Shown: positions 3,868 through 54,998 of the stretch, one piece after another
Position numbering within the stretch: position 1 is the stretch's first letter
How the letters are laid out: every line of letters starts with the position of its first letter
DNA from: an uncultured Actinomycetes bacterium
GTDB lineage: Bacteria > Actinomycetota > Actinomycetes > Nanopelagicales > Nanopelagicaceae
Length of the DNA stretch: 64,000 nt
Assembly: GCA_903825945.1 (NCBI GenBank)
Contig: CAIKCJ010000014.1
Location: forward strand, 1 to 64,000
Direction of reading: 5' to 3'
Notes under the pieces: model-generated
What the model saw: only the letters and a program-made list of their open reading frames with translations
Told to the model about the DNA's origin: nothing
Databases searched by the model: none
Program-made: the position numbers and the translations under genes

Positions 3868-4652
3868 TTGTAAACCACCGTTCCACCTTCGCCACATAGC
3901 GCCGATTCCACATTCGCTATTGATCGACCATCAATGACACGAGCGCGATTGGCTCCAGATGTCAGTGCTGTTATGACTGCTTTCACTTTAGGCGCCATGC
4001 CATCAGCGAAAGATGGCGCCAGCTCTTTGAGATCAGAGAGAGAGATTTCTGCGATAAGAGATTCTGGATCTGGCCAATTACGATAAATTCCTGCTACATC
4101 TGTAATAAAAATTACCTCATCAGCATTGAGAGCACCCGCAATCGATCCAGTCGCGATATCTCCATTGATATTCATTGCAATGCCATCTTTACTAACGCTC
4201 ACCGGTGAGATGATTGGCAGGTAACTATTTGACAAAAGTAGCGATAGGAAAGTTCCGTCCACGGTTTCGGCTTCACCAACGAGACCTGCATCAACGCTCT
4301 GGCCATTTACCTGAGGTGTGTACTTGCGTGCACGGAGCGTGCCTCCGTCGCCGGTACTCAGACCAACTGCATTGATTCCATGACCAATAAATTGATTTGT
4401 TAGATTGCGCAACACTGATCCCGAGAGAGTTTGCTGGACGATCTGCATTACTTCAGGAGTGCTCACGCGATATCCCGACGCCATCTCGGTTGGAATATTG
4501 TGTATCGCCAATTCTTGATCTACCGCTGGCCCGCCCCCGTGTACGACGACAAGCGCACCACCACGTTTATGAAATTGCGCGAGCGAGGCCACGATTGCAT
4601 CGTTGTCAGCTGCAGATTCAAGGACGTGCCCGCCATACTTAATGACAATCAT
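3864..4652 (-). CDS. argB: N-acetylglutamate kinase, short form
   Basis: Amino-acid kinase that phosphorylates N-acetylglutamate. The protein is 262 residues and begins directly with the first strand, MIVIKYGGHVL, followed by the glycine-rich VVVHGGGPAVDQEL. Arginine-inhibited hexameric enzymes carry an extra N-terminal helix of about 25 residues and are near 290-300 residues; this one lacks it and looks like the E. coli-size, arginine-insensitive type. The start is fixed by the ATGA overlap with argC, so the helix is not hidden upstream. Insensitivity is inference from length. In most actinobacteria argJ lies between argC and argB; here the two overlap directly. Confidence 0.95.
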   Translation of the reverse strand: MIVIKYGGHVLESAADNDAIVASLAQFHKRGGALVVVHGGGPAVDQELAIHNIPTEMASGYRVSTPEVMQIVQQTLSGSVLRNLTNQFIGHGINAVGLSTGDGGTLRARKYTPQVNGQSVDAGLVGEAETVDGTFLSLLLSNSYLPIISPVSVSKDGIAMNINGDIATGSIAGALNADEVIFITDVAGIYRNWPDPESLIAEISLSDLKELAPSFADGMAPKVKAVITALTSGANRARVIDGRSIANVESALCGEGGTVVYK

Positions 4653-52761: not shown

Positions 52762-53370
52762 CTATAAAAACGGCACTGCATCCGGCGAGATGACAGCCTG
52801 CGCCACAGCTTTCATGGAAATTCGTCGATCCATGGCCGTACGCTGGATCCAACTAAATGCCTCTGGTTCGCTGAGTTTAAGCGTGGACATCAAAATACCC
52901 TTGGCGCGGTCAATGACTTTGCGAGTGTCGAGGCGCTCCTGAAGATCAGCAACCTCGGATTGCAGCGCTTTGAGTTGGCGATGTCTACTGACAGCGATTT
53001 CAATAGCTGGCGTGAGATCAGAAATTCCAAAAGGCTTCACCACGTATGCCATGGCTCCGGCGTCGCGAGCTCGCTCCACCAATTCACGTTGACTAAATGC
53101 TGTCAACATAAGCACCGGTGCAATTTCGATGATCTGCTCGGCTGCTGTAATTCCATCCATCTCTGGCATCTTTACATCCAGAATGGCAATATCAGGAACG
53201 TGTTGCTTCGCAAGTTCAATCGCCTCTACCCCATTGGTGGCTTGAGCGACGACCTGATATCCAGCTTCGGTCAGCATTTCGACGAGGTCGAGGCGAATGA
53301 TCGCTTCATCTTCAGCAACCAGGATTCGCACAGGCGTAGTTTCTGTACTCGTTGCTGAGTTACTTGTCAT
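52762..53370 (-). CDS. pdtaR: PdtaR-type response regulator with ANTAR RNA-binding domain
   Basis: Cytosolic two-component regulator that acts on RNA rather than DNA. 202 residues: receiver domain (about 14-130) with acidic Glu20-Asp21, phosphoacceptor Asp65 in AILDVKMPEMDG, Thr90 and Lys112, then a coiled segment and an ANTAR domain (about 140-195) with LDTRKVIDRAKGILM and the AF/W-containing AFSWIQRTAMDRR. In family members ANTAR binds twin hairpins and prevents termination. The ATG lies one base after the 3' end of a tRNA gene and has no ribosome-binding site and no TANNNT element at leaderless spacing, so its mRNA must come through the tRNA. The cognate kinase PdtaS is not in the window. 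Confidence 0.93.
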   Translation of the reverse strand: MTSNSATSTETTPVRILVAEDEAIIRLDLVEMLTEAGYQVVAQATNGVEAIELAKQHVPDIAILDVKMPEMDGITAAEQIIEIAPVLMLTAFSQRELVERARDAGAMAYVVKPFGISDLTPAIEIAVSRHRQLKALQSEVADLQERLDTRKVIDRAKGILMSTLKLSEPEAFSWIQRTAMDRRISMKAVAQAVISPDAVPFL

Positions 53371-53371
53371 G

Positions 53372-53444
53372 TGCCTCGAGTCGGATTTGAACCGACACTG
53401 TGCGGATTTTGAGTCCGCCCTCTCTACCGTTGGAGTACCGAGGC
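53372..53444 (-). tRNA. tRNA-Leu(CAA) with a class I (short) variable loop
   Basis: A full 73-base cloverleaf can be drawn: acceptor GCCTCGG/TCGAGGC (7 bp, last pair G-U), D stem CTC/GAG with a GG-containing loop, anticodon stem GCGGA/TCCGC with loop CTCAAAA (anticodon CAA, codon UUG), five-base variable loop ACAGT, T stem GTCGG/CCGAC with loop TTCAAAT, discriminator A. CCA is not encoded. Bacterial tRNA-Leu is normally class II with a long variable arm; this one is not. It follows pyk and abuts pdtaR. No clear promoter is visible just upstream. Confidence 0.9.
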
Positions 53445-53508: not shown

Positions 53509-53536
53509 TAGCCGGAAGTATAACTACTCCCGGCTA
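53509..53536 (-). terminator. 12-bp hairpin after pyk
   Basis: Arms 53509-53520 and 53525-53536 pair over 12 bp with one G-U and a four-base loop, 20 bases past the pyk stop. No T run follows, so termination may be partial and read-through could supply the tRNA-pdtaR transcript. Confidence 0.6.
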
Positions 53537-53555: not shown

Positions 53556-54998
53556 TTATGCTCGATAAGCGGGTGCAACCCCACCGACCGCATCGCCCAC
53601 TATGTGAACTCGAAGGGCATTTGTCGAACCAGGGATTCCTGGAGGGGAGCCAGCAACGATGACCACGCTCTCGCCCTTGGTTGCACGCTTTGACTCAATC
53701 AAGATTGAATCTACAAGCTTGACCATCTCATCGGTCGCTCCAGCGGTTGGAGTGATCAAAGATTCCACTCCCCATGAGAGTGCAAGTTGGTTATAAACCT
53801 CGGTGACCGGGGTTAAGGCCAAGATTGGAATTGCTGAACGCAGGCGGGACATACGACGCGCGGAGTCTCCACTCTGTGTAAAGGCCACCAGGTACTTCGC
53901 GCCAAGGATTCCACCCACCTCGGCAGCTGCCTTGGTGATAGTTCCGCCCTTGGTATGAGGAGTATGTGTCAGCGGCGCAATCTGAGTGAGCATCGCTTCC
54001 TCAGTACGTTCAATGATACGTCCCATTGTCGCTACAGCTTCGATGGCAAAAGCTCCGACAGATGTCTCACCAGAAAGCATGAGTGCATCTGCGCCATCGA
54101 GTACCGCGTTGGCACAGTCAGTGGCCTCGGCACGAGTTGGAGTTGAATTTGAAATCATTGAATCAAGCATCTGAGTCGCAACGATGACTGGCTTTGCAGA
54201 AGCACGAGCCAGCGCAATACAGCGCTTTTGGACGATTGGAACCTCTTCGATTGGCATTTCAACACCAAGGTCGCCACGTGCAACCATGATGCCATCGAAA
54301 GCGTCGACGATCTCTTCGAGGTTATCAACGGCCTGCGGCTTCTCAATTTTTGCAATTACAGGACGATGAATTCCTTCTTCATCCATGATGGCAAGAACAT
54401 CATCAATGTCTTTGGCACTTCGAACGAATGAGAGCGCAATGAAATCTGCGCCAGCATGAAGTCCCCAGCGAAGATCTTCTTTATCTTTCTCGGAGAGCGC
54501 AGGAACTGAGACTGCAACGCCAGGAAGGTTGATTCCCTTGTTATTGCTTACAAATCCAGGTTGCACACACTTGGTGACAACAGCGTTGCCTTTAACTTCG
54601 AGAACCTCGAGAGTGACCTTGCCATCATCGATCAAAATGCGATCGCCAGGCTTGCAATCCCCCGCCAGACCTTTGTAGGTGGTACCGCAAATATCCTTCG
54701 TGCCCTCAACATCATCTGTTGTGATGGTGAAGAAATCTCCGCGAGCAAGCTCATGTGGACCGTCTTTGAATCGAGCCAGACGGATTTTTGGCCCTTGGAG
54801 GTCAACCAAAATTGCAACTGGACGACCAGCCTTAGTAGCTGCCGCGCGAACGCGATCAAGGCGGTTCTGGTGCTCCTCGTATCCCCCGTGTGAGAGATTA
54901 AGGCGAGCCATATTCATTCCCGCTGCAATTAGTTCATCTACTTTTTCAGGTGCCTCAACTGCTGGACCCATTGTGCATACAATTTTCGCTCTTCGCAT
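53556..54998 (-). CDS. pyk: Pyruvate kinase
   Basis: Converts phosphoenolpyruvate and ADP to pyruvate and ATP. 480 residues with the N-terminal KIVCTMGPAVEAPEKV, MARLNLSHGG, the signature AKIEKPQAVDNLEEI with the catalytic Lys, and GDLGVEMPIEEVP. The C-terminal allosteric domain is complete. It lies nine bases after gltD, on the same strand. Confidence 0.97.
   Translation of the reverse strand: MRRAKIVCTMGPAVEAPEKVDELIAAGMNMARLNLSHGGYEEHQNRLDRVRAAATKAGRPVAILVDLQGPKIRLARFKDGPHELARGDFFTITTDDVEGTKDICGTTYKGLAGDCKPGDRILIDDGKVTLEVLEVKGNAVVTKCVQPGFVSNNKGINLPGVAVSVPALSEKDKEDLRWGLHAGADFIALSFVRSAKDIDDVLAIMDEEGIHRPVIAKIEKPQAVDNLEEIVDAFDGIMVARGDLGVEMPIEEVPIVQKRCIALARASAKPVIVATQMLDSMISNSTPTRAEATDCANAVLDGADALMLSGETSVGAFAIEAVATMGRIIERTEEAMLTQIAPLTHTPHTKGGTITKAAAEVGGILGAKYLVAFTQSGDSARRMSRLRSAIPILALTPVTEVYNQLALSWGVESLITPTAGATDEMVKLVDSILIESKRATKGESVVIVAGSPPGIPGSTNALRVHIVGDAVGGVAPAYRA

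Follow-up and report, generated by a model that had tools for sequence, protein, structure and literature searches.

Does a bacterial leucine tRNA need a long variable arm? A 2023 review states that tRNA-Leu is always long-armed outside animal mitochondria (PMC9976931). The window analysed here, a stretch of 64,000 nucleotides from an uncultured Actinomycetes bacterium, contains a gene that had been predicted from its letters alone to encode a tRNA of 73 bases with the anticodon CAA and a variable loop of five bases. ARAGORN, the Rfam tRNA model and direct reading together bear out this original prediction, and no alternative placement of the anticodon, the reservation attached to it, is supported. 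The gene very probably encodes a functional class I leucine tRNA that is charged by LeuRS without a long arm, reads UUG, and belongs to a family typical of its bacterial class and common in phages; we infer its charging and its expression. The features of the gene are as follows.

53372..53444, minus strand: tRNA-Leu(CAA), class I, 73 nt, no encoded CCA (ARAGORN and Rfam RF00005; 96.1 bits with R1, a covariance model of class I UUR tRNAs that includes this sequence)
53409..53411, minus strand: anticodon CAA, reader of UUG (ARAGORN and direct reading)
53397..53401, minus strand: variable loop ACAGT, 5 nt, positions 44-48, last base U48 (direct reading and alignment)
53423..53432, minus strand: D loop CAACGGTAGA, 10 nt, with A14, A15, G18, G19, A20a, G20b and A21; leucine-type D arm
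53372..53372, minus strand: discriminator A73 (direct reading and identity-element comparison)

The Rfam match spans 53372-53444 on the minus strand (55.7 bits, E=1.3e-10), and ARAGORN, whose span of 53371-53444 on that strand includes one extra 3′ base, calls the anticodon CAA. By direct reading, the acceptor stem has 7 bp (GCCTCGG/TCGAGGC), and the anticodon arm (GCGGA-CTCAAAA-TCCGC) and T arm (GTCGG-TTCAAAT-CCGAC) each have a 5-bp stem. Class II tRNAs have a variable arm of at least 10 nt, which the 5-nt loop does not reach, and the acceptor stem of 7 bp and T stem of 5 bp are not those of an allo-tRNA or novel cloverleaf (8/4 or 9/3). The free single-strand fold contains the same three main stems. 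It pairs D-stem positions 10-12 with 21-23, an arrangement that was rejected as impossible in some relatives, for example the genome's own tRNA-Leu(UAA); all 17 relatives keep 10-12 paired with 23-25 around the 10-nt loop, and two of these three pairs show changes on both sides. All four stems are paired in the alignment of these 17 relatives, with both-side changes at 14 of 20 pairs, which bears out the earlier judgement that the stems are intact and the gene is not decayed. An identical or near-identical tRNA occurs in 30 of the 31 other same-genus genomes searched; this conservation and the support for the stems in the alignment indicate that the gene is not a chance cloverleaf.

The genome to which the window belongs (1.26 Mb in 51 contigs, 94.8% complete) has 41 tRNA matches, which were typed with ARAGORN. 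Its CAA and UAA leucine tRNAs are class I, and its UAG and GAG tRNAs, the CUN readers, are class II. Among the 41 matches in this 94.8% complete draft, no class II tRNA-Leu with a CAA or UAA anticodon was found, so the coexisting class II tRNA-Leu(CAA) that had been proposed as a check is absent from the set. To rule out a gap in the draft genome, two single-contig relatives were checked. Both have the class I UAA and CAA tRNAs, and their tRNA matches of at least 79 bases are Leu(UAG), Leu(GAG), Ser and Tyr, with the long matches of the second relative fetched in part and the remainder having the same scores and lengths as those of the first. Since the draft genome and both relatives show the same set, UUA and UUG appear to be read in the window's family by class I tRNAs alone.

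The meaning of these codons was assessed in one gene, the window's glutamate synthase (1504 codons, 22 UUG and 3 UUA), aligned with six homologues whose source genomes, also of the phylum, have no strong class I match. The homologue residue is Leu at 64% of UUG, 83% of UUA and 73% of CUN positions, so that UUG aligns with Leu as CUN does. UUR codons fall in eight homologue-invariant columns, of which Leu occupies seven and Phe the other, and the alignment with the six homologues gives no sign of codon reassignment. Across seven window genes there are 59 UUG and 12 UUA codons.

In E. coli, LeuRS needs A73, the A15-U48 pair, G18G19 and A20a, and in Aquifex it needs U8-A14; the long arm of E. coli tRNA-Leu is unnecessary for leucylation (PMC9976931). 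The identity elements A14, A15-U48, G18G19, A20a and A73 are all present in the window's tRNA-Leu(CAA). Among the genome's tRNAs, A14-A15, U48, A73 and the AA-GG-AGA D loop come together in the four leucine tRNAs and nowhere else; the remaining A15-U48 tRNAs (Gly, Asn, Trp and Gln) have U73 or G73. The genome has a single LeuRS (960.9 bits to TIGR00396); a search with the editing domain returned two weaker matches, in frames of 862 and 1081 aa that, judged by length, are probably ValRS and IleRS. The gene is best read as encoding a tRNA that LeuRS leucylates in the ordinary way and that decodes UUG. LeuRS would charge tRNA-Leu(CAA) through A73, A15-U48, U8-A14, G18G19 and A20a, none of which should require the long arm, and once leucylated the tRNA would decode UUG as leucine on the ribosome. 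Some efficiency may be lost without the arm. The identity rules were drawn from the E. coli and Aquifex enzymes, which are of another lineage.

The tRNA is one member of a class I tRNA-Leu family with UAA and CAA anticodons, plus UAG in phages. This family is the usual form within Actinomycetes, occurs in some of the remaining Actinomycetota and is common in phages. With R1, class I leucine tRNAs score at least 58.7 bits and other tRNAs at most 54.1, except for one rhizobial tRNA-Phe at 55.6. The window's tRNA lies above this gap, although its 96.1 bits are partly by construction, as the sequence is included in the model; independent relatives reach 80-98 bits. Of 295 genomes of the class, 278 have a class I tRNA-Leu (best R1 match E < 1e-15), making the form the lineage-wide variant that had been one of three options offered for it. 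It also occurs in 26 of 109 genomes sampled from the other classes of the phylum. One family, with all four of its sampled genomes, and some members of a genus that has bldA-like class II UAA tRNAs are among the 17 genomes of the class without a strong match. By strict sequence patterns, which undercount genomes with class I tRNA-Leu, some genomes have both UUR tRNAs in class I and others have one of each class.

A wider survey with a restricted pattern covered 84,980 species, with one genome per species. It found a Desulfovibrio metagenome-assembled contig with chromosomal-looking neighbouring frames, and the class I form is therefore not confined to Actinomycetota. The Desulfovibrio gene, a tRNA-Leu(UAA) at 4484-4559 on the minus strand of its stretch, adjoins mutM-, folC- and selA-like genes. 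Two tRNA-array contigs labelled Bacteroidota, phage-like in appearance, were also recovered. The one plasmid match that was checked, from S. meliloti, is a tRNA-Phe and was rejected.

Phages carry the family widely. Lactobacillus phage LP65 has class I tRNA-Leu in UAA, UAG and CAA versions, and others occur in Synechococcus phages S-CREM1, S-CRM01 and Sf-FR1, in Ochrobactrum phage OC, and in Streptomyces and Rhodococcus phages. The LP65 record annotates these tRNAs (27-368 of its stretch) on the strand opposite to the ARAGORN calls. At least 120 viral contigs have a class I tRNA-Leu with a UAA or CAA anticodon, and all 120 listed were confirmed by ARAGORN. Among the contigs listed there are 130 distinct sequences, with A73 in 129 and U48 in 128, and their median G+C, 40%, suggests that the hosts are mostly non-actinobacterial. 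The phage tRNAs (LP65, S-CREM1, Trina, Alone3 and many viral contigs) share the D loop and A73 of the window's tRNA and in most cases A46-G47-U48, and R1 gives those of named phages roughly 59 to 94 bits; the phage tRNAs differ in lying on phage genomes and in including the UAG anticodon.

Class II bacterial tRNA-Leu, represented by the genome's own UAG and GAG tRNAs and by those of E. coli, shares with the class I form a 3-bp D stem, a loop of 10-11 nt, and A14, A15-U48, G18G19, A20a and A73. The variable loop of 5 nt compares with about 13-15 in class II, which also forms its own clade in a tree of the core region. In that tree, which is too short and too closely fitted to the model to settle descent, one group with weak support (0.345) unites 46 of 48 class I leucine tRNAs, and one with good support (0.986) unites the 22 class II leucine tRNAs. 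The common D-arm architecture suggests that class I tRNA-Leu descended from class II tRNA-Leu. That the class I tRNAs are one separate lineage, exchanged between Actinomycetota and phages and kept because a tRNA without the long arm evades the enzymes of hosts or toxins directed at class II tRNAs, is a speculative extension that we think rather unlikely.

Two further kinds of tRNA-Leu resemble the class I form. Animal mitochondrial tRNA-Leu(UUR) is likewise a UUR reader without a long arm and is recognised through A73 and A14 (PMC9976931), but it has a weakly folded anticodon branch, whereas the tRNA described here is a fully paired bacterial cloverleaf found beside class II CUN tRNAs. A tRNA-Leu(UAG) encoded in a mycobacterial tRNA cluster was noted in passing to have a short variable loop where a larger one was expected; the cluster is strain-specific, and a normal class II isoacceptor lies elsewhere, whereas here the core UUR tRNAs themselves have the short loop (PMC6582537).

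tRNA predictors already label such genes tRNA-Leu, and curators will have seen them. The original prediction had allowed that this might be a standard, described tRNA of the phylum: it is standard for the phylum, but in open-access full text, with subscription journals mostly outside the search, we found no paper describing class I tRNA-Leu as phylum-wide and only passing mentions of exceptions. The short form has apparently not been formally described so far. The long-arm rule for tRNA-Leu (PMC9976931) fails in a large bacterial class and in many phages. Nature has here removed the arm from a tRNA-Leu that very probably still works, which opens to direct test the arm's purpose, the means by which LeuRS separates its own tRNAs from the Ser and Tyr ones, and whether enzymes or toxins that act on tRNA distinguish the two forms. 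Isotype models that presume a long arm may misjudge class I tRNA-Leu genes.

The tRNA gene lies between two protein-coding genes on the same strand, and the order in the window's family is pyk, tRNA, pdtaR.

53556..54998, minus strand: pyruvate kinase gene (pyk), upstream of the tRNA (Pfam PF00224, PF02887)
52762..53370, minus strand: pdtaR-like gene with receiver and ANTAR domains, its ATG one base past A73 (Pfam PF00072, PF03861; conserved arrangement)

In 43 of 45 distinct pyk-tRNA-pdtaR loci of the family, an ATG or GTG start codon of pdtaR stands exactly one base after A73 (window 53368-53372); in the other two, pdtaR is further downstream. Among these loci, the N-terminal extension ahead of the receiver domain differs in both length and sequence. 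Across the class, tRNA-Leu(CAA) and pdtaR are neighbours, mostly divergent, with pyk frequently on the opposite flank; in other classes, some genomes have pdtaR downstream of tRNA-Leu(CAA). The neighbourhood is old.

This arrangement is what would favour a mainly regulatory, non-decoding role for the tRNA towards the adjoining pdtaR, another of the options in the original prediction: the two genes are neighbours class-wide, and the start codon directly follows the tRNA in nearly all loci of the family. The gene is the genome's sole CAA tRNA, however, which leaves a non-decoding role unsupported; its anticodon arm and identity elements are intact, and UUG is the commoner of the two UUR codons in the seven window genes. 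We regard this role as highly improbable, and any part that the tRNA plays in the expression of pdtaR would be additional to decoding. Charging by a synthetase other than LeuRS, with UUG (and UUA) reassigned or ambiguous, is just as improbable. It would fit the missing long arm, and other class I tRNAs reach about 56 bits with R1, but UUR codons stand at leucine positions, the complete leucine identity set is unique to the genome's leucine tRNAs, and the form is fixed across a class whose proteins look ordinary. The same leucine positions and identity set, and the lack of a class II CAA tRNA, speak against the remaining option, an extra isoacceptor with atypical charging.

Phages do integrate at such genes: one Mycobacterium abscessus prophage record opens with 47 bases from the 3′ end of a class I tRNA-Leu(UAA), which is therefore its apparent integration site. 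This could make the window's gene a decayed or truncated copy, such as the remnant of an integrating element. The sequence is identical in most genomes of the genus, its stems are all paired with compensatory changes, and the genome has no intact alternative CAA tRNA; its conservation and its status as the only CAA tRNA already refute decay, to which we assign next to no probability. The functional leucine tRNA charged by LeuRS is thus the reading that we retain.

With the start codon one base after A73, there is no space for a pdtaR ribosome-binding site outside the tRNA. Either 3′ processing of the tRNA may free a leaderless pdtaR mRNA or the GAGG of the acceptor stem may serve unprocessed transcripts. 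The tRNA has no encoded CCA, yet in the window's genome the best match to the RNase Z model TIGR02651, 17.9 bits, falls below the curated cut-off. In the stretch that separates pyk from the tRNA, at window positions 53510-53535 on the minus strand, lies a hairpin, AGCCGGGAGTA...TACTTCCGGCT, which has no T run and is a possible terminator or processing site.
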